Position numbers and translations under genes: made by a program. Of a stretch of 21,468 nucleotides of DNA, positions 1,753 through 21,468 are shown piece by piece. Source of the DNA: a virus. Positions within the stretch are counted from its first letter, which is position 1; every line of letters starts with the position of its first letter. A model generated the notes under the pieces. The model had not been told where the DNA came from, searched no databases, and saw only the letters and a program-made list of their open reading frames with translations. The stretch lies in the IMG/VR virus record IMGVR_UViG_3300046780_001181, positions 1-21,468 of that record. One strand, written 5' to 3'.

Positions 1753-2706
1753 TCAACGCACCGCGCCCAGCACCACATCGCCGCTCACGTAGCGGTTCGC
1801 GACGTCCTGCACGCCGAGCGCTCCCATGACCTCGCGACAGTGCGCATCGTCGCGGCACACGACCACCACGTAGAAGTCAGCGCGGGTCTTGCCAGCGAGC
1901 TGATCGGTGTACGCGTAGCGACGCTCAGCCACGCTATCGCGGTACTCCTGCGTGTAGGTCTCGCCACCTGCACCACCTGCGCCAGCCTCCTCGCCGAGCT
2001 CGGGCATGACGGCATCTCCGTCCGAGGTTCCACCGGGCGGGGTCGTCGACACGCGCCGATCGTGCCCGCGCACGTTCGTCGTGCGTGCTTCGTCCTTCGC
2101 AGCTTCGATGGCGTCGAGTGCGCCTTTCGCGCCGGGCATGGTGCTCTGCTCGGGCTCGAGGTCGGGAAACATGGAGCCGAAGCGCTCGTCGCCGGGGAAC
2201 ATCTGCCCGATGTCGACCTCGTCGAAGCCGAAGCCTTCGAGGCCAGCCAGGTCGTCGGCGAGCAGCTCCCCGAGCCGCTCCCAGTCGAAGGCGCCCTGTG
2301 TACGCGGATTGTTGAAGAACGAGTTCTGTCGCTTCTCCTTCTTCTCGGGCCAGTCGATCACGGTCATGTCGAGCTGGTAGTCCTTCTCGGGTGTGCCGTC
2401 GTACTCCTCGAGAAAGTCGAGTTGCTCAAGGCGCTGGTGTCCGCTCACCAGTCGCGTCGTCCGCTTGTTGAACACCAAGGCCGGGCCCACCAAGCCCACC
2501 GTGCGCAGGTTCTCCCGCAGCCGACGCGCGTTGTCCTTCTGGATGTGCCGTGGGTTGTACGCTGCGACGTTCAACGCGGACCTTCGCATGCGCTCGACCG
2601 ACCCGGTTTGAAACCTCGATCGTTCGCCCGCGGCTGCCGAAGAGTCGATCTCGCTCGAGGATGGCTTCGGCGAGCGGGAACGCGTCGATGATTTTTGCGT
2701 AATCAT
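1753..2706 (-). CDS. ParB/sulfiredoxin-superfamily protein (phage ParB-like nuclease domain)
   Basis: The 317-residue product has a Ser/Arg-rich N-terminal 30 residues, then a ParB-like domain (about 31-135) with the family landmarks YNPR at 50-53, the LVSGHQRL motif with GHQR at 89-92, and an NNP motif at 132-134. A Gly/Glu-rich linker follows (about 185-245), then a C-terminal domain (about 256-317). ParB/Srx-fold proteins bind or hydrolyse nucleotides; phage members are commonly labelled ParB-like nucleases and occur beside PAPS-reductase-family or DNA methyltransferase genes. Here the partner is directly upstream and overlaps it by 281 bases. An AAGGAAAGG seven bases before the ATG supports this start; the next in-frame ATG (2589) would remove residues that look like part of the domain. 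Not a partitioning ParB: no helix-turn-helix region or ParA is seen. Confidence 0.8.
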   Translation of the reverse strand: MITQKSSTRSRSPKPSSSEIDSSAAAGERSRFQTGSVERMRRSALNVAAYNPRHIQKDNARRLRENLRTVGLVGPALVFNKRTTRLVSGHQRLEQLDFLEEYDGTPEKDYQLDMTVIDWPEKKEKRQNSFFNNPRTQGAFDWERLGELLADDLAGLEGFGFDEVDIGQMFPGDERFGSMFPDLEPEQSTMPGAKGALDAIEAAKDEARTTNVRGHDRRVSTTPPGGTSDGDAVMPELGEEAGAGGAGGETYTQEYRDSVAERRYAYTDQLAGKTRADFYVVVVCRDDAHCREVMGALGVQDVANRYVSGDVVLGAVR

Positions 2707-3313
2707 GGGGGAACCTTTCCTTGATCTGCGGCAGCACGTTCAGACTCACGCCGCTCATGTCCGCTTTGTCGGCGGCCTGAAACGACGGCGCGAGCGGAAC
2801 GCCCAAGAGGCCCACGAGCGAGCGCACCTCACGATGCGTCCAATCCCACACCGGATAGAGACGCTGCTCCTTGGGGTTGATGCCTTCGAACGGGCGGAGC
2901 AGAAACCGGCGTTGCAGGCTGTCCACCTGCTTCTCGCCGCTCGCGGTCCACGCGCAACCGGTGCGCTTCTTGGCGAGCGCTTCGACATCGCGAAACTTCA
3001 CCTTCCGCGTGCCCACCTTCGTTTGCCACGGCGTGAACGTGCCCGTGCGTAGGAGCTCGAGCGTGTTGACCTCGGGCACGGTCACGAGCGGATGGCGGAC
3101 GCCGAAGTGCGCAAGCTGCGCACGGATAGGCGTCTCGACGCATCGCAGGCCTTCGACGAAGAATCGGAAGCACGGGACGATGCGCGCGGGTCCGATGGCT
3201 TCGGTCGCGAGCTTGAGCACCGCGATCGAGTCCTTGCCGCCCGATACCCACACAAGGAGCGGATCGCGCGGGTGCTGGGCGCTCCATCGGGAGAAGACGG
3301 AGAGGTCGCGCAC
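2426..3313 (-). CDS. PP-loop ATP-pyrophosphatase of the PAPS reductase family
   Basis: The 295-residue frame starts with GTG at 3313, seven codons before a region matching the PP-loop fold. The SGGKDS P-loop (residues 24-29, in VWVSGGKDSIAVLKLA) binds the ATP that the family uses to adenylate a substrate. Residues 145-165 (EGINPKEQRLYPVWDWTHRE) match the domain segment before the C-terminal helices. The C-terminal catalytic Cys motif of true PAPS reductases is missing; cysteines are at 48, 58 and 120 only. So sulfate assimilation is unlikely, and nucleotide or nucleic-acid modification is more plausible (inference). Residues after about 230 read as low-complexity and lose the G/C third-position bias just where the ParB frame gains it, so the functional protein may end near there or be frameshifted. 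It follows the basic protein gene by six bases. Confidence 0.75.
   Translation of the reverse strand: MRDLSVFSRWSAQHPRDPLLVWVSGGKDSIAVLKLATEAIGPARIVPCFRFFVEGLRCVETPIRAQLAHFGVRHPLVTVPEVNTLELLRTGTFTPWQTKVGTRKVKFRDVEALAKKRTGCAWTASGEKQVDSLQRRFLLRPFEGINPKEQRLYPVWDWTHREVRSLVGLLGVPLAPSFQAADKADMSGVSLNVLPQIKERFPHDYAKIIDAFPLAEAILERDRLFGSRGRTIEVSNRVGRAHAKVRVERRSVQPTAHPEGQRASAAGEPAHGGLGGPGLGVQQADDATGERTPAP
2714..2722 (-). promoter_or_regulatory. Ribosome binding site of the ParB-like gene
   Basis: AAGGAAAGG on the minus strand sits seven bases before the ATG at 2706. It supports that start although it lies inside the coding frame of the upstream PAPS-reductase-family gene, and so argues that the gene overlap is genuine. 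Confidence 0.5.
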
Positions 3314-5938: not shown

Positions 5939-6424
5939 CTACGCCTTCGGTCGCAGTGGTGGAGGCCGAGGCCGCTCGGTGATTATGTCGCCGGCAGTGG
6001 TCGCCCTCGGCTCGTTTGAGCGGGGCGAGATCAGCTTCTGTCTACCCGTGATGTGCTCGAGATTTCTCTGCGCAGTTCGCGCGGCGACGCGGGATTCAGC
6101 CTCGCGTGCTTCGAGGTCAAGCTTGCCCTCCTTGAGCGCTTCGAGCTCGGTGCGTAGCTGGCGGTTCTCAAGGGAGAGCTCGATTGTGAGCTTACGCAAG
6201 CGGTCGATCTCCACGCCCTTCGAGAACTCCTCGGCCGCTACAACCACCTCGGTCTCGCGCTCCTCCATGGCGTCGATCTCTTGCACCTTGCGCTGAAAGG
6301 ACGGGGTGGGGTCCTTGCGCTTCTTCATCTCACGCCACGCCCCGAGCGCCATCGCAAAGATGGCCGCGCCAACCCACTGCGGATCACGAAGCTTGCTGAG
6401 TAGCTGATCGAACAGGTCCTTCAT
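5939..6424 (-). CDS. Membrane-anchored coiled-coil protein, possible inner-membrane spanin
   Basis: The 161-residue product has one hydrophobic segment at about residues 17-31 (WVGAAIFAMALGAW), basic residues after it, a long heptad-like charged helix at about 44-125 and a Pro-rich end (RPRPPPLRPKA). One N-terminal anchor plus a coiled coil is typical of i-spanins, which link inner and outer membranes during Gram-negative lysis; the Pro-rich end is more like an o-spanin, so the assignment is tentative. It overlaps the endolysin gene by four bases (ATGA), consistent with a lysis operon. Confidence 0.45.
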   Translation of the reverse strand: MKDLFDQLLSKLRDPQWVGAAIFAMALGAWREMKKRKDPTPSFQRKVQEIDAMEERETEVVVAAEEFSKGVEIDRLRKLTIELSLENRQLRTELEALKEGKLDLEAREAESRVAARTAQRNLEHITGRQKLISPRSNEPRATTAGDIITERPRPPPLRPKA

Positions 6425-7041
6425 CGCGTGCCGAGGCTCGCGAGATCAGCCGACGACAACAGCCCGCGCGGCCAGTCCTCGACCGATGGATCAAGCCCGA
6501 GCGGGAGGGCGAGGCCACGGATCAGCGGATCGGTGAGGTCGCGCTTGCCCGCGCGCACGCCGTCTCCGCTGTTGCCCTCGATGGTACTCACCGTCCAGCC
6601 GTTCTCAGACACGCCGGTGATGATGCCGGTGTGCCCTTCGCTTTGCCCCTTCTCGAATGGCTTTTCGAGACGGACGAACACGGCTCCAGGGTAGGGGCCG
6701 ACGAGCACACCCGAGCCCCGCGTCGCGCCTAGATCGAACCAACGCCCGCGTGCATATGCAGAGCGCGCAAGCTCGAAGCACCCACCGATCTGACGGTCAA
6801 ACGGGTGCATGAGCAATGCCTCGTGCCAGCACCAGGTAGCGAACCACGCGCACCAGGCCTCGGCCGACACGATGCGCCCCGCCTTCTTGTCGGCGGCGAA
6901 GAGCTCGGACCGCCGCCATTCTGGGCGGTACTCGTCGATGCGGGGGGAGCGGTTGGAGTGCGAGCCGCGCGGCAGCTCGATGATGCCTTCTTCGCGGGCG
7001 GCGACCTCAATGATGCGCGCGAGCTTCGTTGAAAGCGGCAT
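6421..7041 (-). CDS. CHAP/NlpC-P60-like endolysin (peptidoglycan hydrolase)
   Basis: The start is taken at the ATG at 7041 because AAGGAG lies eight bases before it; an earlier in-frame start at 7101 would add an Arg-rich leader and lengthen the overlap with the upstream gene. The 206-residue product has the cysteine-peptidase pattern: WCAWFATWCW with candidate nucleophile Cys64, then EGHTGIITGV with His137, and STIEGNSG with Glu155/Asn157 as the third polar residues. CHAP and NlpC/P60 enzymes cut amide bonds in peptidoglycan. No signal peptide is visible, so release should depend on a holin. Context fits: small membrane protein upstream, coiled-coil membrane protein and LLH-like holin downstream. 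A structural tail lysozyme is less likely given this position. Confidence 0.75.
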   Translation of the reverse strand: MPLSTKLARIIEVAAREEGIIELPRGSHSNRSPRIDEYRPEWRRSELFAADKKAGRIVSAEAWCAWFATWCWHEALLMHPFDRQIGGCFELARSAYARGRWFDLGATRGSGVLVGPYPGAVFVRLEKPFEKGQSEGHTGIITGVSENGWTVSTIEGNSGDGVRAGKRDLTDPLIRGLALPLGLDPSVEDWPRGLLSSADLASLGTR

Positions 7042-7285
7042 GGGCAGGACTCCTTCCCTCCGCCGTCGACGTGAGATGCGCGTTCGCGCCGATGTAGCCA
7101 ACCAGCGCGCCCGAGATGAACAGGAGAAGCATCGCGGAGAGGGATAAAGGCCGAGTAGCCGATGTGCGATGAGCTTCGAAGGATTCGCACATCTTGCACA
7201 CGCTCGTGTTGAGCAGGAGCAGGCTGTTGTTCACCCTGATCAGCAACTCGCGCGCTTCATCCGTTGGCTCTTTCGACTCACTCAC
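7007..7285 (-). CDS. Small single-pass membrane protein, possible second holin or antiholin
   Basis: The 92-residue product starts with GTG at 7285, seven bases after an AAGGAG. Residues 1-45 are polar with a CKMC pair (30-33); one membrane segment spans about 48-68 (SLSAMLLLFISGALVGYIGA); the C-terminus is short and His/Ala-rich. Position immediately upstream of, and overlapping by 35 bases, the endolysin start suggests a lysis role such as holin or antiholin, but a single-pass protein could also be an unrelated membrane protein. Confidence 0.5.
   Translation of the reverse strand: MSESKEPTDEARELLIRVNNSLLLLNTSVCKMCESFEAHRTSATRPLSLSAMLLLFISGALVGYIGANAHLTSTAEGRSPAHAAFNEARAHH
7050..7055 (-). 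promoter_or_regulatory. Ribosome binding site of the endolysin gene
   Basis: AAGGAG on the minus strand, eight bases before the ATG at 7041. It decides that start against the longer in-frame reading from 7101. Confidence 0.6.
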
Positions 7286-8871: not shown

Positions 8872-10650
8872 CTAGCCAGGTATCAGCTGATCCGCGGTGA
8901 ACGTGTATTCGACTCCGAAGACCCTATCCAGCGTCGCGGTCCCGCCCGTTCCGCCCGCGGCGATCGCGACGACAATAGAGAACGCGCCCTTGTTGAGGGT
9001 GTATCCGATGTTGTCCAGCAGACGCGTCTGAAGATTAGTAGTTCCGTCGTCTTGCACCGCTGTGGCAAGAGAGGTTGTGTTGCCGTCAAAATCGACGGCG
9101 AGAACGATGAACGCCATCTTGCTCGTGCCGCTGCGCGCCGCGCTGGGCTGCATGCGAACACGAACGCGATTGAGTACGCCAAAATGCGGGACATCTAGAC
9201 CGAAGAACAGGCTTCCCGTGGGACCGCTTATGTTCGACACCCACGCGTGAGTAGCGCTGTCCCAGTGCCATGAGGCGTATTGGACGTTGGTGCTCGAAAT
9301 CGTGACAGTGGTCTGCGAGGTCTGTGCATCGCTGAAGGCGTTCACGATTCGCGTCTGCGGGATCACAGGCGAGATTTGAAAGCCAGAAGCAATGGCTAGG
9401 TTCGCCGCGATCAAGTTGTTGCCAGCGCGGATGTCGCCGACGCTCGGCGGTGCGGTCACGCCGGTATAGATCTTCCCCGCGGTCGCGTAGACGTTGCCCG
9501 TGACCGAGTACACGTCAATGTCCGCACGGAGATCACGGCTCGCCCAGATGTCTCCTTGGAACGTCGGTGCTGCACCGGTAAAGACGTTCGTGGCTTGAAC
9601 GCCGCCGGTCGTGGCGAACTCTCCGAGCAAGGCGAGGTTGCCAACGATTTGTTGGTTGCCCGTGAAGCTGTTGCCGCCTGCGAGCCGCGCGAAGATCGAT
9701 GTGCTGATCGTGTCGAGCTTCGTTTTGTCCGCGGCTGACATGAAGCCCGCCACCGCCGCGGTCGCAAGCGCATGAAGCGACGCGCCAGGCTGATTGCCGT
9801 GCGCGTGTACGTGGTCGATTCGCGCGCTCTCAAGCAGTACGCCAGGCGTCGCAGTACCAAGCGGTTGCGGAGCGAGATTCGAAAGCGGCGTGCTCACTGA
9901 CGTGTCGAGCTTGTTCTTGTCTGCCGGGCTCATGAAGCCAGCTGTCGCTGCAGTCGCCAGCGCGTGCTGCGCTCCACCTCCGCGGTTGCCGTGCTGCGCG
10001 TCGGTCGCAAGGGTCCCTACCTGAATCGAGTCCGCGTTCACCGCGATCGAACCGTCAGGCGGTGCGCCCACGTTGAAGACGCGATCCGCGCTGAGGTCGC
10101 CGCCACCCGTGAGCCCGTTGCCTGCGTTGAGCGTGCGATTCGAGATGCCCCCACTCGCCGGGGCTTGCCATGTGGCTGTGGTCGTCGACGTCGCGGTGAG
10201 TACTTGCCCGATGGTAGGCGTGCCCGTGACCGCCATCGTATTGGCGGTCGAGATGGCGCCTACTTGCTGCGCGGTCGTCTGGTGCGGGTTGTTGAAGTCC
10301 GAGCGGTGGTTGTCGTTGAGCACCTTGTCAGAAGACGCGTAGAAGCCGTTGACCGTGGTCGTGGCTACGGCGTGGAGCGTTCCTCCCGGAAGGTCACCGT
10401 GCTCGAAGGCGTTGAGCGCACCGGAGCTGATGACCCACCAGTTGACGGGTGCGAGATTGAAGAGGCCGTACCAAGCGCCGTTATCGAGGCGCTGAAAGAC
10501 CTTGCCAACATCTTCGATGGTGACAGCGCGGCCGTCTGGGTACTCCGAATCGTTGACGATGCCGGCGTTGAGATTGGTCTCGTTCGCGATCGTGCCGGCA
10601 AGAATGCCGTGGATGCCGTGTTCGATCGTGAGCGCCTTATGATGCGGCAT
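8872..10650 (-). CDS. Tail fibre protein A
   Basis: The 592-residue protein has an N-terminal anchor of about 72 residues shared with the fibre at 13734-15860, a repetitive shaft, and a C-terminal domain (about 430-592) unlike any I recognise. The shaft has three copies of a HA-x-AT-x4-GF-x-S-x2-DK-x2-L element (about residues 86-112, 225-250, 289-314), common in phage fibres, and an HVHAH motif (280-284) like the metal-binding HxH motifs of fibre tips. The middle is rich in Gly, Asn, Thr and Ala with Gly-Asn turns as in trimeric beta fibres. Role: receptor contact, as the distal end of the baseplate appendage. It lies downstream of the glycoside hydrolase by 48 bases; the ribosome site is weak. 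Confidence 0.8.
   Translation of the reverse strand: MPHHKALTIEHGIHGILAGTIANETNLNAGIVNDSEYPDGRAVTIEDVGKVFQRLDNGAWYGLFNLAPVNWWVISSGALNAFEHGDLPGGTLHAVATTTVNGFYASSDKVLNDNHRSDFNNPHQTTAQQVGAISTANTMAVTGTPTIGQVLTATSTTTATWQAPASGGISNRTLNAGNGLTGGGDLSADRVFNVGAPPDGSIAVNADSIQVGTLATDAQHGNRGGGAQHALATAATAGFMSPADKNKLDTSVSTPLSNLAPQPLGTATPGVLLESARIDHVHAHGNQPGASLHALATAAVAGFMSAADKTKLDTISTSIFARLAGGNSFTGNQQIVGNLALLGEFATTGGVQATNVFTGAAPTFQGDIWASRDLRADIDVYSVTGNVYATAGKIYTGVTAPPSVGDIRAGNNLIAANLAIASGFQISPVIPQTRIVNAFSDAQTSQTTVTISSTNVQYASWHWDSATHAWVSNISGPTGSLFFGLDVPHFGVLNRVRVRMQPSAARSGTSKMAFIVLAVDFDGNTTSLATAVQDDGTTNLQTRLLDNIGYTLNKGAFSIVVAIAAGGTGGTATLDRVFGVEYTFTADQLIPG
9709..10395 (-). repeat. Three copies of a fibre-shaft repeat in tail fibre A
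   Basis: The 26-28 residue element with core GFMSPADKNKLDT occurs at 10315-10395 (diverged copy GFYASSDKVLND), 9901-9978 and 9709-9786. The last two are nearly identical in sequence and separated by 114 bases. This is a familiar modular unit of tail fibres, and close copies allow recombinational exchange. Confidence 0.7.
10435..10650 (-). repeat. Duplicated fibre anchor domain (copy 1)
   Basis: The first 72 residues of fibre A align end to end and without gaps with residues 1-72 of the lectin fibre encoded at 15645-15860. By hand count 44 of 72 positions are identical, including GTIA, AGIV, DVGK and WYGLFN and the closing NWW. The two copies are about 5 kb apart in the same orientation. I read it as the domain that docks fibres on the baseplate. 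Confidence 0.75.
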
Positions 10651-10698: not shown

Positions 10699-12453
10699 TC
10701 ACGTCCCGACGTGGTCGAGGTTCCACTGCACAAGCGCATCCATCTTCGGGCACTGCCGAGGAACCGCGTTGATGATCTGGCGAATATCTTCCATCCAGCC
10801 CCAACGGCCCCATTGCGAGAAGTCGCCCGCGTGGTGATAGGCAACGATCGGCCCGTTCGGCCCGCTGCTCCGAACCGAGCTCGCGTGAACCGAGTTGAGC
10901 CAGTTGTAGAGGAGTCCGTACATGTTCGCGTGGCGATTGATGTCGTTCAATCGGGCTTGCAACGCGGTGTTCCCGAAGTCGCTGTTGTAGAGGTGCTGAC
11001 CGCCCTCGTAGCAAGCCATGGGCAAGTTGTGCACCGCGGCCGCCGCAACGCTCGCTTGGAAATCGGCAATCACGGGTGGGATGTCTTCGGCAGCAATGCG
11101 CGCGATCGTTTGGGGGATGGTCTCGCTCATCGTGAGCGGGTTGTCCCCTCGGTCATGCCCAAAGTACGGCGCGACCGCCATGAAGTCTGCGTACTGCCAC
11201 GCGCGCGTGCCGTCGGTGAAAGGACCCACGGTGTACTGCCAGTCGCGAAGGATCTCGTTGCGCAGGACATAACCGACCTGCGACTCGAGCACGTGATGCA
11301 AACGAGAAGGTGCGATGCCGGCGTTGAGCATCGCCTGGCGCATGTACCTGCCCATGATCGCTTGGTACCCGAAGCGCGTGTCGTACTCGTTCGGTAGGCC
11401 GTAACGCGAGATCCCGAGCCGCATGGCGTCTCCGCCGTTGTAGAAGGCGTCGTTCCACTGCTCGTTGCCGTACGCGAAAAAGAAGTGCATCCACGGGGGC
11501 GCGTAGCTCGCGCACAGCCCGGCCATGCCGTCGCACCAGTTCGTGGTCGCGAAGAGCGGGACCTGGAACCACAGGTGACTGTTGTTGAGGCGGCACATGT
11601 CGATGAGGAGCTCGTTGCTGGCTCCCTGACGACGCGCTTGAAGCGCGTAGCCCGCGGTCGTGCGGGTGCTCCAGTCCGTGACAGCGCGCGAAAGGTCAGG
11701 CGTGGTTTCAGAGCTGCCGAGGCGATCGATGTTGTTGATCTGCTGCATGTCGAGCATGCGCAGCACGCCAAAAGGGGCGAGGGTCTCCATAAACCGCGGG
11801 TTGAAGAGTTTCGTCGCGTAGTCGGTCTCGTTGGCGATCGGAACGACGACCAGGTTGCGCACTGGGTTCGAGACGTTCGACCGCGTGATCAGGATGCCTA
11901 CGCGGTTGATGACATCGCCATCGTTCGCACCGTCGAGCTGCAGCACGTAGCGCCCCGGCGCGGAGCTGAGGATCGAGCCTCCAAAGTCGACGGAGATATC
12001 ACCGTCCCCCTGGTAGAGCGCGACATGTGGCCCCGGGTAGAGAACGCGTGCTTGAAAGCCTGCGTATTGGCCGCTGCCAGCGACTACGCTCCGAGGCCAC
12101 CCGTTGGCGTCGAGCGCGAGATTCTCACCCCCGCCGTAGCCCCAGTCCGAGCGTTGCCACCCCAGATCGAGCCCGTGCACGCAGCTGTCGTAATAGGTGA
12201 GCCAGGGGATGTTCATCGAAGCGCGAGAGCGCGCGCTGGTAACGGGGCTTGAGCCCGCCGCTCCAACGAGCCCGGGCAGAATGCCGGCTACGGAGCCGCC
12301 AATCCCAGTACCGCCGCCGAACATCTGCCCGCGCAGCCCTGGGAGCTGGCCTGCGACTTGGCCCGTGATCTCCACCGTGGGTGCGGACCCGTCACCGCCA
12401 CCGCCGCGCGGGCGGCCGAGAAGGCTGCGCAGCAAGGGGATCCCGGGACGCAT
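10699..12453 (-). CDS. Tail-associated glycoside hydrolase (clan A-like), LPGL-repeat N-terminus
   Basis: The 584-residue protein has an Arg/Gly-rich start, two VAxxLPGLxG repeats (about residues 31-42 and 53-65), then a large domain. Features of a clan GH-A TIM barrel are visible: AYGNEQWND with candidate acid/base Glu331, and CYEGGQHL with candidate nucleophile Glu483, both at strand ends. Tryptophans at WGYGG and WQYADF could line a sugar site. The residue roles are inferred from the pattern. There is no signal peptide, so it is likely a virion enzyme that cleaves host capsule or exopolysaccharide. It starts nine bases after the SGNH gene and precedes fibre A. Which polysaccharide it cuts cannot be read from sequence. 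Confidence 0.7.
   Translation of the reverse strand: MRPGIPLLRSLLGRPRGGGGDGSAPTVEITGQVAGQLPGLRGQMFGGGTGIGGSVAGILPGLVGAAGSSPVTSARSRASMNIPWLTYYDSCVHGLDLGWQRSDWGYGGGENLALDANGWPRSVVAGSGQYAGFQARVLYPGPHVALYQGDGDISVDFGGSILSSAPGRYVLQLDGANDGDVINRVGILITRSNVSNPVRNLVVVPIANETDYATKLFNPRFMETLAPFGVLRMLDMQQINNIDRLGSSETTPDLSRAVTDWSTRTTAGYALQARRQGASNELLIDMCRLNNSHLWFQVPLFATTNWCDGMAGLCASYAPPWMHFFFAYGNEQWNDAFYNGGDAMRLGISRYGLPNEYDTRFGYQAIMGRYMRQAMLNAGIAPSRLHHVLESQVGYVLRNEILRDWQYTVGPFTDGTRAWQYADFMAVAPYFGHDRGDNPLTMSETIPQTIARIAAEDIPPVIADFQASVAAAAVHNLPMACYEGGQHLYNSDFGNTALQARLNDINRHANMYGLLYNWLNSVHASSVRSSGPNGPIVAYHHAGDFSQWGRWGWMEDIRQIINAVPRQCPKMDALVQWNLDHVGT
12259..12363 (-). repeat. LPGL repeat pair, glycoside hydrolase gene
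   Basis: Two copies of a 22-residue unit with core GQVAGQLPGLRG and GSVAGILPGLVG lie at the start of the glycoside hydrolase. The same unit is present in the SGNH and lectin-fibre genes next door. Confidence 0.75.
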
Positions 12454-12462
12454 CAGCTCAGC

Positions 12463-13737
12463 TCACGTTGGGAAAGGCCACCATCCACTCACGGGAACAT
12501 CGGCGCTGGTCGACCAGTAGATCGGATTGTTGTTGTTCGTGGCCGCGAAAAAGCTCTGAAAGCCAGGGACGTCCTTGTCGAAGTACGCGCCGTAGATCGA
12601 CGCGAAGCTGTTCGCCTGCAGCAGACGCGCAGCGGTGTCGTGCTGCGGCCCGAGCGGTTGCCCGGTGTAGTACGCAGAGACGAAGTCCCAGGCCTCGTTT
12701 TGGAGGGAGGTCGCTTGCGTGCCGGTGACGCTGCCCAGGGTTGCCGCGCCGACGGGAGAGCGACGATAGAGCGACGCGTAGATCACGCAGCCCATGAAGT
12801 ACGCGCCCACCTCGGTCAGGTGCACGTCGCCTTCTGGGTAGTCTTCGTCTTGAATCACCGTGTAAACGGTGGCTGCGGAGCTGCCCTGGGTAATACCAGC
12901 GATGCTGCCCGTCGTAGCCCGCTCGAGCAGATAGGCGAGCGCGCTGCCCCCCGGCAAGGTCGCCATGCGGTCAAGCCGCCCGGTGAAAGAGAGCGTGTCG
13001 TTGATGCGTGTTGCGACGCCTTCCCAAAAAATGGTTTGTGCGCGCGTCAGGGCGAGCCAGTCTGTCAGGTCGCTCGCGTTCGTGATCCACGGCCATGCGT
13101 CGTAGTAGTAGCCAATGCCGCTCGGTGACGTGAAGTGAAAGGTCTCGTAGTAGGCGCGCAGCGACTTCAGCCCTTCGGAGAAGCGAAGCGATTCGAGCGA
13201 GTAGTGATCCTCTGCGATCACGAGGTGCGTGTAGTCGGTCGCCGAGATGCGGTTCGTGTTCTTCATCTCGAGGAACGCGTCTTGTCCCTCGGTGCCATCG
13301 CGGTTCTGGCCGTTCGTCCAGCCATCCCACGTCGTGGTGTCGTAGGGGTTGCCGCCGTTGGCGGTGCGCGCCCAAATCGTCGACGCCGGATACATCTGAT
13401 TTTCGTACTCGTTCGAGTAACCGCGGTCGGTCGCGATGTGGTCGACCACCGCCGCAATTTGAGCGTTGAGCAAGGAGTGCCCCGAATAGAAAACCGAGGC
13501 GGCACTGAGCGGCGTGCCGAGGTCCGGTGCACTTGCCGAGCTGCCCACCGCTGCACCTCGCAAGCCGGGCAACGAAGCCGCGACCGTTCCAGACAGCCCT
13601 ACGCCCGTCTGCAAACTCGCCCCGCGCAAGCCAGGTAAGACGGCGGCCACGGTGCCCACCAGGCCGGAAGGTGTGCCGCTGCCGCTGCCCCGCTTGGCGA
13701 CGCTCGCAGGCCAGCCCGACCAGCGCGGCCAGCTCAT
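12463..13737 (-). CDS. Tail-associated SGNH-hydrolase-like protein, LPGL-repeat N-terminus
   Basis: The 424-residue protein has an Arg/Trp start, two VAxxLPGLxG repeats (28-40, 50-62), and a domain beginning at about residue 78 with VFYSGHSLLN, where Ser88 would be the nucleophile of a GDSL-type esterase; here His replaces the usual Asp of GDSL. Near residue 304-311, DVHLTEVG, gives the D-x-H catalytic pair (Asp304, His306) of SGNH hydrolases. Such enzymes remove acetyl groups from polysaccharides. The region between (about 90-300) carries aromatic residues and several Asn and Tyr. The ATG overlaps the previous stop as ATGA. No signal peptide, so virion association is likely. The last third resembles nothing I know. 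Confidence 0.7.
   Translation of the reverse strand: MSWPRWSGWPASVAKRGSGSGTPSGLVGTVAAVLPGLRGASLQTGVGLSGTVAASLPGLRGAAVGSSASAPDLGTPLSAASVFYSGHSLLNAQIAAVVDHIATDRGYSNEYENQMYPASTIWARTANGGNPYDTTTWDGWTNGQNRDGTEGQDAFLEMKNTNRISATDYTHLVIAEDHYSLESLRFSEGLKSLRAYYETFHFTSPSGIGYYYDAWPWITNASDLTDWLALTRAQTIFWEGVATRINDTLSFTGRLDRMATLPGGSALAYLLERATTGSIAGITQGSSAATVYTVIQDEDYPEGDVHLTEVGAYFMGCVIYASLYRRSPVGAATLGSVTGTQATSLQNEAWDFVSAYYTGQPLGPQHDTAARLLQANSFASIYGAYFDKDVPGFQSFFAATNNNNPIYWSTSADVPVSGWWPFPT
13552..13656 (-). repeat. LPGL repeat pair, SGNH gene
   Basis: Two copies with core GTVAAVLPGLRGA and GTVAASLPGLRGA, 22 residues apart, lie at the N-terminus of the SGNH-like protein. These two are the most alike of the six copies seen in the window. 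Confidence 0.75.
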
Positions 13738-15860
13738 GGGATCGTGAGGCCCTTGTCCGAGGCCATGTAGACCGCGTCGGTGTGCACTTCAGTCGAGTCG
13801 AACGACTCGTTGTACACCGCGATCTCAGCGATGGTGCCCTCGGACGGATACGCCTCGTACATGCCGAGGTAGAAGAGCGAGAACGGCCCCTCAGCTTCGA
13901 TGGTGGCGTCAGTGAGCGTGACCGGTGCTGCGTCGACATAGAGCACGATGCTGCCCGCCGTAGCGCCCACGCGTGGCGTAACGACTGCCGTGACAACGTG
14001 TGGCGAACCGTTGTGAGCCACGGTGCCTTGCGCGAATCCGCCCGCTGTGTTCTCGGAGACCACCGAGAGCGCGCCGGCCGCGGACAATCCCACGTAGATG
14101 TAGTTGTTGCCGCTGCCTTTGATCGCCCACATCGCCTGATCAGCGATCAAGCTGTCGAACTTGCAGACGCAAGAGACTGTGAAGACGCCTCCAGACGTGA
14201 TGTCGACCGCGATTCCATCCGCGCGCAAGCCTTCGCCATCGCCGTTGTCGCGGTCGAACGAAATGGAGCCGTGCCCCGCGTAATTCGAATCGCTCCCCAC
14301 CCAAAGCGGCAGAGCGCCGAAGCTCGGCGCGCCCGCGTTGTTCACCTGCGTACTCAAGTCTGCGACGGCTGCGACGTCCGCGCCCGAAAGCGTGATGTTG
14401 GCGAGCTGCGCCTTGAACCAGCCGACCAGCGTGCCCTTGTCTGTGGGAAGGTAGCTGACACTTCCGACGGTCCCCGCGGCCGCTCCGACAAGCCCGGGCA
14501 TGGTCGCGGCTACCGTGCCGTCCAACGCGCCACCCGAAGAAGCGGAGCCCACCAGACCCGGAAGCGTAGCCGCGACCGCGCCAGTGAGACCTGCAGGCGT
14601 GCCCGAGTTCGGCTCGAAGCTTGGCGACCTCGCCGCGTACACCACGCTGCCAAGTTTCGACAGTGAGTACATAGTGGCGCCCGTTGTATACGCGTCGAGC
14701 GTTTCGCCCACAGGACGCTGCACGTCGCTCGGCCAAGTGAGCGCAAAGGGACCGCCGGACTGGGTTACAGCGAGCTGGCAGCCAGCCTCTGGAACGTTCG
14801 CTAGCCCATTGATCGTGCAGTTGTTGGTCAGCGCGAGCGTGAAGCGATCGACGCCCGTGAAGTCGAGCGCGAGTAGGCTCGAGAACGTCAGCGCAGACGT
14901 GACGAAGGAACCGCCGCCGCCCCCCGAGCTTGCGTTGTCGGCCGCGGGAGCCCACGCCGAGCCGTTGTACTTGATGACCTGCCCGGTCGCTGGCGTCGTC
15001 ATGCTCGGGGCGAACGAGCGGCCCATGATCCCGCTCACCGTGGGGGTGGGCAACGCGCCCGCCAGATCACCGCCCACGAGACCCGCTAGGTCGTGCGTGT
15101 GGTCGCTGCGGGAAGCCAAGCCGGAGACGCCGCCCGTTCCGTTCCCCACTGCAGGCGGCTCGGCACTCGATAGCCCCGCGCCACCCCCGCCGCCGCCCCC
15201 ACTTCCCGGGGGGCCGTAGCTCGCGTTGACCATGGGCGACATTGGAGCGATCGCTACGTAGTCAGAGCGCACCTCGTACGCGAGCAGGGTGACCGCAAGC
15301 GCGGTCTGGTCGACCTGCAACGTGCCCGGGCTGTCTGGCATCTTGATCGTGCGACCTGTGCACGTGATCCCGGTGATGTCGCGGCCGCCAACGCCGTCCT
15401 GACGAAGCTCGATGGTGCCACTCGCGCCATCCACCGGGTTGATCAGCACGATAGCGACGTCGCCATTGAGAGGCGCAATCGTGTGCGCGCATCGCACGCC
15501 CACATTGATGTTCACCGATGCCGCATAGGGCACCGAGGAGATCCGCGGAAGAAACGAGCCTGCGTCGAGTACGCTGAAGCCGTCCGCGTCGAGGTCTTGC
15601 GTCAGGACGCTAGGGAACGTGGTGGAACCACCACCGCCCAAGTCCCACCAGTTGATCGGCGCATAGTTGAAGAGCCCGTACCAAACGCCGGTGTCGGTGC
15701 GCTGATAGATCTTGCCGACGTCGGTGCTGCGAATGGCTCGCCCTGACGGGTTCTCGTGGTCGCGCACGATGCCGGCGGTGAACTCCGACTCGTCTGCGAT
15801 GGTCCCGGCGATGACGCTGTGAATGCCATCGGCGTAGGTGAGAGCCTCATGCGAGGGCAT
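13734..15860 (-). CDS. Tail fibre protein B with C-terminal lectin (LamG/ConA-like) domain
   Basis: An ATG at 15860 is chosen because the product then starts like fibre A; a GTG at 15869 is the longer option. Of 708 residues, 1-72 form the anchor shared with fibre A. A shaft follows with a poly-Gly linker (about 221-229) and SDHTHDL (HxH) at about 252-258, then two LPGL repeats (about 427-438, 448-459). The C-terminal region (about 470-708) has the strands of a concanavalin A-like/LamG fold: VGWFKAQ, SISFDRDNG, FTVSCVCKF, IVLYVDAAPV and GTIAEIAVYN. This suggests glycan binding. It is the first gene of the receptor trio and overlaps the SGNH gene by four bases. Phage fibre with lectin tip is the role I infer. 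Confidence 0.8.
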   Translation of the reverse strand: MPSHEALTYADGIHSVIAGTIADESEFTAGIVRDHENPSGRAIRSTDVGKIYQRTDTGVWYGLFNYAPINWWDLGGGGSTTFPSVLTQDLDADGFSVLDAGSFLPRISSVPYAASVNINVGVRCAHTIAPLNGDVAIVLINPVDGASGTIELRQDGVGGRDITGITCTGRTIKMPDSPGTLQVDQTALAVTLLAYEVRSDYVAIAPMSPMVNASYGPPGSGGGGGGGAGLSSAEPPAVGNGTGGVSGLASRSDHTHDLAGLVGGDLAGALPTPTVSGIMGRSFAPSMTTPATGQVIKYNGSAWAPAADNASSGGGGGSFVTSALTFSSLLALDFTGVDRFTLALTNNCTINGLANVPEAGCQLAVTQSGGPFALTWPSDVQRPVGETLDAYTTGATMYSLSKLGSVVYAARSPSFEPNSGTPAGLTGAVAATLPGLVGSASSGGALDGTVAATMPGLVGAAAGTVGSVSYLPTDKGTLVGWFKAQLANITLSGADVAAVADLSTQVNNAGAPSFGALPLWVGSDSNYAGHGSISFDRDNGDGEGLRADGIAVDITSGGVFTVSCVCKFDSLIADQAMWAIKGSGNNYIYVGLSAAGALSVVSENTAGGFAQGTVAHNGSPHVVTAVVTPRVGATAGSIVLYVDAAPVTLTDATIEAEGPFSLFYLGMYEAYPSEGTIAEIAVYNESFDSTEVHTDAVYMASDKGLTIP
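14484..14582 (-). repeat. LPGL repeat pair, lectin fibre gene
   Basis: Two copies with core GAVAATLPGLVG and GTVAATMPGLVG, 21 residues apart, lie immediately before the lectin domain. In this protein the pair is internal, unlike the terminal pairs of the two enzymes. Confidence 0.75.
15645..15860 (-). repeat. Duplicated fibre anchor domain (copy 2)
   Basis: Second copy of the 72-residue fibre anchor, residues 1-72 of fibre B. Key shared blocks are GTIA, AGIV, DVGK, WYGLFN and the final NWW. See the copy at 10435-10650. Confidence 0.75.
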
Positions 15861-15907
15861 GCGCACCACCTTCGGCCTCGCGCATCGCCGGGCTTGGATT
15901 CACGAGA

Positions 15908-16312
15908 TCAGGTTCCGATGACGTTCGTGATCGTGAACGAAGACAGGCTGATCGTTACGCCGGAGACGAAAGCCAGCGACGCGAACTGCGCCTCGCCTCC
16001 GCCGCCCGTTGTTGACACCGTGAAGTCACCAAGCCGCGTGGTGCCGTCGGACTGAAAGCAGCGAATGAACGTGCATGAACCAGTCGCGTCTGCGCTCGAA
16101 TCGGCCGTGATTGCGTTCGCCGTGAGAACGCCACCCGATGCAGCGGGAAACGCTGTCGCTCCGAATCGAAGCTCGGCGAGCAACGTGTTCCCAGAGAGCG
16201 CCGCGTCACCGTCAGTGGGCTTGGTGCCCGCGTAGCAGCGAATGTATCCGCTGTTGTAGCTCGCGCGAATCGCATCGAGCATGGCGTTGCGAATGACTAC
16301 CGGTGCTTTCAT
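15908..16312 (-). CDS. Conserved phage tail-region protein, Ala/Gly/Thr-rich
   Basis: The 134-residue product has SGYIRCYAGTKPTDGDAAL near residues 20-38, VLTANAITADSSADATGSC in the middle, and SGVTISLSSFTITNV near the end. I recall this arrangement (YIR-x-Y-x-G, LLAEL-x-FG, ANAI-x-DSSADATG) from small beta-rich proteins in many tailed phages, next to fibre genes; their exact role is not established to my knowledge. AGGGGA six to seven bases before the ATG supports the start. It is flanked by short gaps of 47 and 69 bases. Confidence 0.7.
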   Translation of the reverse strand: MKAPVVIRNAMLDAIRASYNSGYIRCYAGTKPTDGDAALSGNTLLAELRFGATAFPAASGGVLTANAITADSSADATGSCTFIRCFQSDGTTRLGDFTVSTTGGGGEAQFASLAFVSGVTISLSSFTITNVIGT

Positions 16313-19548: not shown

Positions 19549-20283
19549 CTATTCGGTACTCGACACCCTCGACGCAGTTGCGGATTTCAAAGCCAAGGCT
19601 GCTTGCAGCGCTGTGGTCCAAAGCGTTGCCGCGGGAGGAAGCGCGCCCGGCAATGGCGTAAGCGCTGCGATGATCCCTTGCAGAGAGTTGAACAGGACGT
19701 CGAGATACCTGTGTAGCGATTCGTCCTTTGTCACGCCCTCGGCGGGCAACAGACCAGGCCCCACCTGATGGCTCGACGTCGTCACCTGCACTGATCCGGT
19801 GGGAGTCATGCGAATCACCGCGGTGCCGTCTTCCTTGCCGATCACGAGGTCCGCGGTGCTCACGTTCTGCACGCGCAGCACATCGGGATAGCAGCCTGGC
19901 TCAGCCCAACACCCATTGAGCCCGTGCGGGTCGCTCACGCCCGGGTGCTCGTGCACCTGCCCGCTACCGCGCCACACGAGCAGGCTTTGAATCGAGCAGT
20001 GAACCTTCACCCAATCGCCGACCTTGAGCGGGAACGTGATGACGAAGCCACCCGCGCGCGGCCATTGGATGGGGATGTTCACCTGCTCGCCCAGGTCCTC
20101 GAACGCGACCCCCTCGTGCTCCTCGCCGGGCAGCTCGACCATCACCGCGGGGTCAACGTCGACCGTGCTGAGAGCTGCGTCATAGCGCACCACCTTGGCA
20201 GGAAAGCTCGTGTAGAGGTCGCGGCGAAAGTCATCAAGGACGCGGTCAAGCGCTTCGCGAGGTGTGGAGACGTCAGGGCCCAT
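19549..20283 (-). CDS. Baseplate spike protein, Gp138/GpV-like
   Basis: The ATG at 20283 gives 244 residues; an upstream in-frame reading to 20424 overlaps the hub gene and begins with Arg/Ser-rich sequence, so it is not used. The N-terminal half follows the Gp138 pattern, namely FPAKVVRYDAALSTVDVDPA (about 27-46), then VNIPIQWPRAGGFVITFPLK (about 68-87), GDWVKVHCSIQSLLVWRGSG and DPHGLNG. The OB-like start and a beta C-terminus suggest the membrane-piercing tip of the tail, a trimer under the hub. The later residues become Ala/Leu-rich. No ribosome site is obvious. The hub lies 43 bases upstream. Confidence 0.7.
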   Translation of the reverse strand: MGPDVSTPREALDRVLDDFRRDLYTSFPAKVVRYDAALSTVDVDPAVMVELPGEEHEGVAFEDLGEQVNIPIQWPRAGGFVITFPLKVGDWVKVHCSIQSLLVWRGSGQVHEHPGVSDPHGLNGCWAEPGCYPDVLRVQNVSTADLVIGKEDGTAVIRMTPTGSVQVTTSSHQVGPGLLPAEGVTKDESLHRYLDVLFNSLQGIIAALTPLPGALPPAATLWTTALQAALALKSATASRVSSTE

Positions 20284-20326
20284 GCGAGCATTCGAAAGGA
20301 GCGCGCGCGCAGCACCTTGGATTCGA

Positions 20327-21181
20327 TCAGCGGATCTCGCGCCCCTTCCCCTCGACCACCCAATCCTGTTCGCGGGTGTCGCCGATAACGCGGCGCTTCT
20401 CGATGCGCCACAGGCCCGTGCCATACGAGGTCAGCGACTCGATTTGTACCGGATACCCGCACTCAAGTCCGGGCAGGATGCGCGCGCGGAAGCTCATGAT
20501 CCCCTTCGTGTCGATCTCGGGAGAGCCTTCGAGCCCAGAGTCGCGATTCAGCACGGTCGCTTGCACGCTCAGCACGCCGCCGCGCTTGATGAGCTGAAAC
20601 TCGTTGCCTTGGATACTGAGCTCGTGCCCGGCCGAGCGCGCGAGCTTCTGCATGAGCTCGTACTCGCTGCCGCTGTAGTTGAGCCCACGCGCGAACGCTT
20701 GCCCGAGGCCCTCGAAACTGAGGTTACCCTTGCGGAGCTCGGCGCCCACGTTGCCGATGCCCACCCCCATCCGACTCGCGAGGTCACTCATCACGCGATC
20801 AAGGCTCACGCCCGGGCGCACGCCGCTGGTCTTGGCCTTCTTGCGGGTGCGCCGCGCGCCTTTGTCACCGTCGCCGGCACGAAGGACCGTGATCCAGGTC
20901 GCGCCGTCGCTATCCGGCCGGCTGTAGGCTGCACGCATCTCGCCCGCGAAGATGAGAGAGAGGCCCGTCTCCTCGTACCCCGCCTCGACGACCACCTTGG
21001 CCTTGGCGTCTGCCTTGTGCATGGCGTTGCGAGACGACTCGGCGAGGTTGTAAATCGAGACCTCAGAGCGATTCGTCTCCTTCGCAAGCGACTGCTCGAT
21101 CGTGAAGCCCACGCGGAGCTGCTCGACCGCGAGGCTATCGACGGTCACGCGGCAAATGCGCCTCCAGATCCGCGGTGCCAT
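20327..21181 (-). CDS. Baseplate hub protein (GpD/XkdQ-like)
   Basis: The 284-residue product has NRSEVSIYNLAESSR (about 37-51), AGYEETGLSLIFAGEMRAAY (about 67-86) and a Lys/Arg-rich linker near 109-117, with PEIDTKGIMSFRARILPGL at about 222-240. These are the usual blocks of hub proteins of myoviruses and XkdQ/GpD-like tail proteins, which connect the tube to the spike. The start overlaps the previous stop in TGATG. The length is near the lower end of the family. Position before the spike fits. Confidence 0.7.
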   Translation of the reverse strand: MAPRIWRRICRVTVDSLAVEQLRVGFTIEQSLAKETNRSEVSIYNLAESSRNAMHKADAKAKVVVEAGYEETGLSLIFAGEMRAAYSRPDSDGATWITVLRAGDGDKGARRTRKKAKTSGVRPGVSLDRVMSDLASRMGVGIGNVGAELRKGNLSFEGLGQAFARGLNYSGSEYELMQKLARSAGHELSIQGNEFQLIKRGGVLSVQATVLNRDSGLEGSPEIDTKGIMSFRARILPGLECGYPVQIESLTSYGTGLWRIEKRRVIGDTREQDWVVEGKGREIR

Positions 21182-21468
21182 CAGGGCTCTTCTACATCGG
21201 CCTGATCGATGAACACGACCTTGACGGCCTCGCCAAGGTCATCGTGGGTCGGGTCCACCTCTGCCACGCCATCCGGCGCGACGGCGATCATCATGCCGTC
21301 TGGCTTCCTCGGGTCGGCCGTGTTGTTCAAGAGGTCGACGTTGAGCACAACGCGCACACCGGAAAGGATCGGTCCATCCAAGTCCGAAAGGTCCATGAAC
21401 CAGGCGTTTCCGCGCTCGTTCCAGAGCCAACGAATGGTGTAGGTGACGCCATTGAGGGGCACCTTCAC
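21181..21468 (-). CDS. Baseplate plug protein (Pam3 gp18-like), probably 5'-truncated
   Basis: The 95-residue reading begins at the last base of the window with a GTG, and its first residues (VPLNGVTYTIRWLWNERGNA) look like the inside of a domain, so the true start probably lies to the right of the window. The motif WNERGNAWFMDLSDLDG (16-32), the VRVVLNVDLL strand, and DPTHDDLG near the end match the plug protein of cyanophage Pam3-type baseplates. That protein closes the tube above the hub. The stop overlaps the hub start in TGATG. Confidence 0.65.
   Translation of the reverse strand: MKVPLNGVTYTIRWLWNERGNAWFMDLSDLDGPILSGVRVVLNVDLLNNTADPRKPDGMMIAVAPDGVAEVDPTHDDLGEAVKVVFIDQADVEEP

Follow-up and report, generated by a model that had tools for sequence, protein, structure and literature searches.

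Phage tail tips are built of interchangeable parts, and how extra enzymes that lack an anchor are attached to them is often unknown. In branched receptor-binding systems, which set a precedent for the layout described here, a short N-terminal peptide is conserved among the secondary proteins, its presumed partner being a domain of another kind (PMC6872550). The 21,468-base IMG/VR virus record that we analysed over its whole length (the window) has on its minus strand a baseplate and tail-tip region that is like the G7C, K1-5 and KP32 group (PMC6872550) in that tip proteins lie next to one another, with one of them presumably anchored and with putative enzymes among the tips. Three of these tip proteins, whose domains are unrelated, carry two copies each of one short repeat; we conclude that this module is real and that the repeat is used here in an unusual way.

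Three adjacent tail-tip genes and their repeat pairs

The region comprises a baseplate hub (phrog_196), a Pam3_gp18-type plug, a baseplate wedge (phrog_6), a phrog_3758 virion protein, a 708-residue fibre, an SGNH-like protein, a glycoside-hydrolase-like (GH-like) protein and a second fibre (Table 1). The ATG start of the fibre gene at 15860 was picked by alignment to the second fibre, the longest open reading frame beginning with a GTG at 15869. Because the fibre stop and the SGNH-like start share 4 bases (ATGA) and only 9 bases lie between the SGNH-like stop and the start of the GH-like gene, we took these three genes as one unit. The baseplate proteins at 19549-21468 matched the Pam3_gp18 plug (2.1e-18), PF18352 (1.3e-12) and, weakly, E217_GP41, and judging by these matches the baseplate is probably of the simple contractile-tail type, like that of Pam3. 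Searches with baseplate J, the fibre's N-terminal module and the two putative enzymes (SGNH-like, GH-like) found no relatives of the window phage. Elsewhere in the window, a CHAP-domain protein (6421-7101, 2.1e-8) is a probable endolysin, and at 1753-3313 a PAPS-reductase-like gene (2.2e-4, just under the cut-off) lies beside an open reading frame that resembles a ParB-type nuclease domain protein.

Table 1. Coordinates of the tail-tip features, numbered from the first base of the window.
Feature	Position	Strand	Remark
phrog_3758 virion protein	15908..16312	-	adjoins fibre gene
Fibre gene	13734..15860	-	anchor-like N-terminal module, variable middle, repeat pair, LamG-type lectin
75-residue anchor-like N-terminal module of fibre	15636..15860	-	alignment
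Fibre core 1, VAATLPGLVG	14547..14576	-	
Fibre core 2, VAATMPGLVG	14484..14513	-	
LamG/ConA-like lectin domain of fibre, PF13385	13785..14198	-	24.3 bits, Pfam cut-off 27.6
SGNH-like esterase gene (putative)	12463..13737	-	motif reading only
SGNH-like core 1, VAAVLPGLRG	13621..13650	-	
SGNH-like core 2, VAASLPGLRG	13555..13584	-	
Glycoside-hydrolase-like gene (putative)	10699..12453	-	motif reading only
GH-like core 1, VAGQLPGLRG	12328..12357	-	
GH-like core 2, VAGILPGLVG	12262..12291	-	
Second fibre gene	8872-10650	-	without repeat
N-terminal module of second fibre, corresponding to that of fibre	10426..10650	-	alignment

The two putative enzymes were named from their motifs, GHSL...DVHLTEVG (of the GxSL and DxxH type) in the SGNH-like protein and GNEQWN...YEGGQH, holding a candidate pair of catalytic Glu residues, in the GH-like protein; neither protein had a match in Pfam, PHROGs, NCBIfam or the PDB. 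The 75-residue N-terminal modules of the two fibres are 59% identical and are presumably the virion anchor. Both enzymes are without this module; at their N-termini, a short basic leader is followed by a Gly-rich stretch and the repeat pair, so that the first ~70 residues are the only obvious part that might place them on the virion. The repeat pair may thus be how both putative enzymes join the tail. In the second fibre (8872-10650) we also saw two copies of HALATAAxAGFMSxADKxKLD, with weak PHROG matches there (phrog_5207, phrog_6907); we take this to be a common kind of tail-fibre motif.

The initial annotation of this DNA had described two copies of a unit with the core VAxx(L/M)PGLxG in each of three consecutive genes. 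When we ran the regular expression V[AS]..[LM]P[GA]L.G over all six frames of the window it matched exactly six times, only on the minus strand, with every one of the three adjacent genes holding two matches, where about 9e-5 copies would be expected by chance from the composition of the three proteins together. The annotated range of 12259-14582 was likewise correct (the cores span 12262-14576), and the pair is indeed N-terminal in both enzymes, at about residues 22-65 and 25-68. That of the fibre (residues 424-466) lies ahead of the LamG match (residues 558-695), about 90 residues separating the two. The cores within a pair are spaced by 21 residues in the fibre and by 22 residues in both the SGNH-like and GH-like proteins. 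No third unit was found in any frame of the window proteins, which therefore hold pairs and not arrays of at least three units. A fibre stretch at residues ~266-278 (GGDLAGALPTPTV, window 15030-15080) scored only 6.5 bits as a repeat unit and was left uncounted; it resembles the GGDLxGxYPxPTV motif of many phage tail proteins.

A 21-residue tandem repeat in other viruses

Outside sequences were gathered with DNA patterns and tblastn, and came from seven IMG/VR contigs (G001-G007) and three cyanophages. These showed the repeat to be a 21-residue tandem unit with the consensus GTLAGTLPALTGxLxGxVxVx. On the seven other IMG/VR contigs, eight proteins carry arrays of this period that hold 3 to about 18 units; the forms in G006 and in cyanophages Mae-JY02, Mel-JY03 and Pan4 are looser. 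The outside period is mostly 21 residues (range 19-23), which the spacings of the window pairs (21, 22, 22) fit. The initial annotation had mentioned VAATLPALTG strings in phage and bacterial proteins, and these arrays in viral contigs agree with that remark. A random spread of the repeat among unrelated proteins, which it had named as grounds for dropping the docking idea, was not seen in this small sample.

We made a two-unit profile solely from the arrays of other viruses, with the window left out; long sliding-window alignments were gappy and were also left out. As HMMER's composition correction, on by default, masked the match in the SGNH-like protein, we used uncorrected scores and judged them against shuffled and reversed decoys. 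The three window proteins scored 35.6, 23.0 and 19.9 bits, and the best decoy among thousands of shuffled or reversed sequences scored 11.8 bits. Run against whole records, a profile of this kind hit exactly three places in the window (E-values of 1e-6 to 1.8e-5). Since these are exactly the three window pairs, we conclude that the window unit is a two-copy form of the 21-residue tandem repeat. From virus to virus the P, L and G columns hardly vary, and the V, L, P, L, G positions are conserved.

Other searches for the repeat gave nothing further. An exact-66 DNA spacing pattern had no match in viral or genome contigs, and tblastn with an artificial consensus array had none either, probably due to the low-complexity filter. 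Candidates from a profile A1 did not pass a tblastn check. Three further matches were rejected: the pattern match in L005 does not lie in one open frame, that in L020 has no array, and a plasmid match (H15) runs antisense to the gene there, in what looks like a biosynthetic region. Searches of the repeat segments against Pfam (best E-value 0.22) and PHROGs (best E-value 0.51), and of the whole repeat proteins against NCBIfam, identified no family, and in the literature we found no paper with TLPALTG, ATLPALT or GTLPALTG, AATLPGL occurring only in an unrelated vaccine paper. The 21-residue viral repeat family is therefore apparently uncatalogued.

A LamG-type lectin was found on the repeat chain in four proteins from three viruses (the window fibre, two proteins of G005 and one of G007); one of the four, a G005 protein, exceeded the Pfam cut-off, and the other three scored 20.3-24.3 bits vs the cut-off of 27.6. 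The order is not fixed, as the lectin comes before the repeat in some array proteins. The window, G005 and G006 each have a phrog_3758 gene in the vicinity of a repeat gene. Since the outside records were gathered via the repeat itself, these lectin and neighbour associations are descriptive. In G005, two repeat genes, some 2 kb from each other, immediately precede the terminase gene; both encode a lectin plus an array, and they look like paralogues; this was the one virus outside the window with neighbouring repeat genes, in a small sample, and no unrelated enzymes are among them. Each lectin-plus-array gene of G005 (L021:6500-11518) is followed by a gene for a small protein of about 95 residues, and their location just upstream of terminase and portal is an unusual site for tip proteins. 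The Mae-JY02 protein WWT39551.1 (L010:6729-8621) is labelled a glycerophosphodiester phosphodiesterase; its sequence consists of a Gly-rich domain plus repeats, and the label looks mistaken.

Likeness of the units and explanations for their sharing

Between the window genes the 12-residue cores are 71% identical, and to outside units they are 47% identical. Units inside one outside array are 50-71% identical, so the window cores are as alike between genes as units elsewhere are within a single array. Position 9 is G in 6/6 window units and in 0/48 outside units, which carry A there, giving the window a private P-G-L core; among the window copies, the unit's second half shows little conservation. 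At the DNA level, identity between window units was 41-62%, the longest identical run between genes was 11 bases, and 43 identical codons were observed at shared residues vs 60.1 +/- 8.3 expected from codon usage. With a one-sided P of about 0.015, the shortage of identical codons might point to codon diversification; such a deficit was not consistent across four outside arrays.

These comparisons bear on the proposal in the initial annotation that the repeat is a short homology used to shuffle modules. In all three genes the pair does lie where unrelated domains adjoin, as would suit a DNA-level homology serving as a crossover point for the shuffling of tip modules. However, because synonymous codons are no more alike than chance, recent gene conversion and DNA-level shuffling are unsupported, and together with the low DNA identity and short identical runs this leads us to consider a crossover point very improbable; shuffling long ago, with drift since, may have occurred. 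The six window units look like one lineage held alike at the protein level, and on the sequence comparisons such constraint fits better than recent copying or a DNA crossover site. Of the remainder of the annotated interpretation, part stood: the sharing is real, the repeat recurs in viral proteins and is accompanied by lectins, and G005 too has it in adjacent genes.

AlphaFold2, given a four-unit array as a gap-free 12-row alignment, produced a model of low confidence (mean pLDDT 59, pTM 0.42) with a regular beta pattern every ~21 residues. Foldseek with this low-confidence model found no significant fold match; among its closest PDB neighbours, none of which reached significance, were several known beta-solenoid proteins. 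The full SGNH-like protein did not fold in its model, which had a mean pLDDT of 43 and showed the repeat pair as coil; a single pair might not suffice for independent folding.

The reading that we favour, at about even odds, is that each pair represents a brief stretch of the viral tandem repeat and forms a beta-rich stalk, or an attachment segment, bearing the exposed tip domains of tail proteins. The two-unit repeat would then join or position three putative carbohydrate-acting tips, namely a lectin, an esterase and a glycoside hydrolase; the beta fold, the stalk role and the placement on the tail are what we infer from the evidence above. Amino acids that are kept while synonymous codons are random, with P, L and G columns near invariant, are as expected of a folded element and not of a free linker. 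A plain flexible Gly/Ala/Ser-rich linker, with a likeness that is compositional, would agree with the high G/A/S content, the variable second half and the coil of low pLDDT in the SGNH-like model; but composition-matched shuffles and reversals never reach the window scores, and the V, L, P, L, G positions, none of which a free linker needs, are held across unrelated viruses, so such a linker appears rather unlikely.

It is also unlikely, in our estimate, that the repeat is a docking tag by which the lectin fibre and both enzymes would associate in trans, like repeat with like repeat, making the enzymes branches of the fibre. Consistent with docking are the within-array level of likeness between genes (71% over the core), the private P-G-L core, the presence of the anchor in the fibre and its absence from the enzymes, and a second fibre that is without the repeat; branched systems with short N-terminal peptides have moreover been modelled in Klebsiella phages (PMC6872550). 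The known branch peptide, however, presumably binds a different, T4gp10-like domain and not its own copy, and the outside arrays sit in single proteins, where they must serve without partners from other genes. No T4gp10-like domain was found in the window fibre with Pfam, PHROGs or NCBIfam, although a remote one could be missed by these searches. We think it quite doubtful that the pair is a homotypic connector through which like units of the fibre, esterase and hydrolase stack into a mixed tip complex; if this were true, an unanchored enzyme would join a phage tail via two copies of a general self-stacking unit. A short unit that can be counted with a profile and is common to lectin and enzyme genes gives a handle on tip proteins in unannotated viruses, and its attachment role could be probed simply, by deleting it and by binding assays.

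Comparison with known systems

Like those of the branched systems (PMC6872550), the unanchored tip proteins of the window have only a short shared N-terminal element. Unlike in those systems, the element is a two-copy member of a tandem-repeat family and also lies inside the presumably anchored fibre. Among folds of known structure, beta-solenoids (bactofilin, the MinC C-terminal domain and an ice-binding protein) have a comparable coil length and are among the top neighbours of the low-confidence array model, none of them significant. The cyanophage proteins of Mae-JY02 (WWT39551.1) and Pan4 (UXO94013.1) resemble the window enzymes in having a short N-terminus, a Gly-rich part (PF21722 in the Mae-JY02 protein) and ~20-residue (A)SGxLPLTG units; they differ in that the units are looser (10-26 bits per two-unit stretch) and no lectin or enzyme domain was recognised. 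The arrays of G001-G007 differ from the window in having 3 to about 18 units, usually with the lectin before the repeat, and no recognised enzyme. They are nonetheless like the window in unit length and in the GxVAxxLPxLxG core (G001-G005 and G007, with G006 looser), and, as in the window, the chain bears a LamG domain in G005 and G007 and has a phrog_3758 neighbour in G005 and G006.
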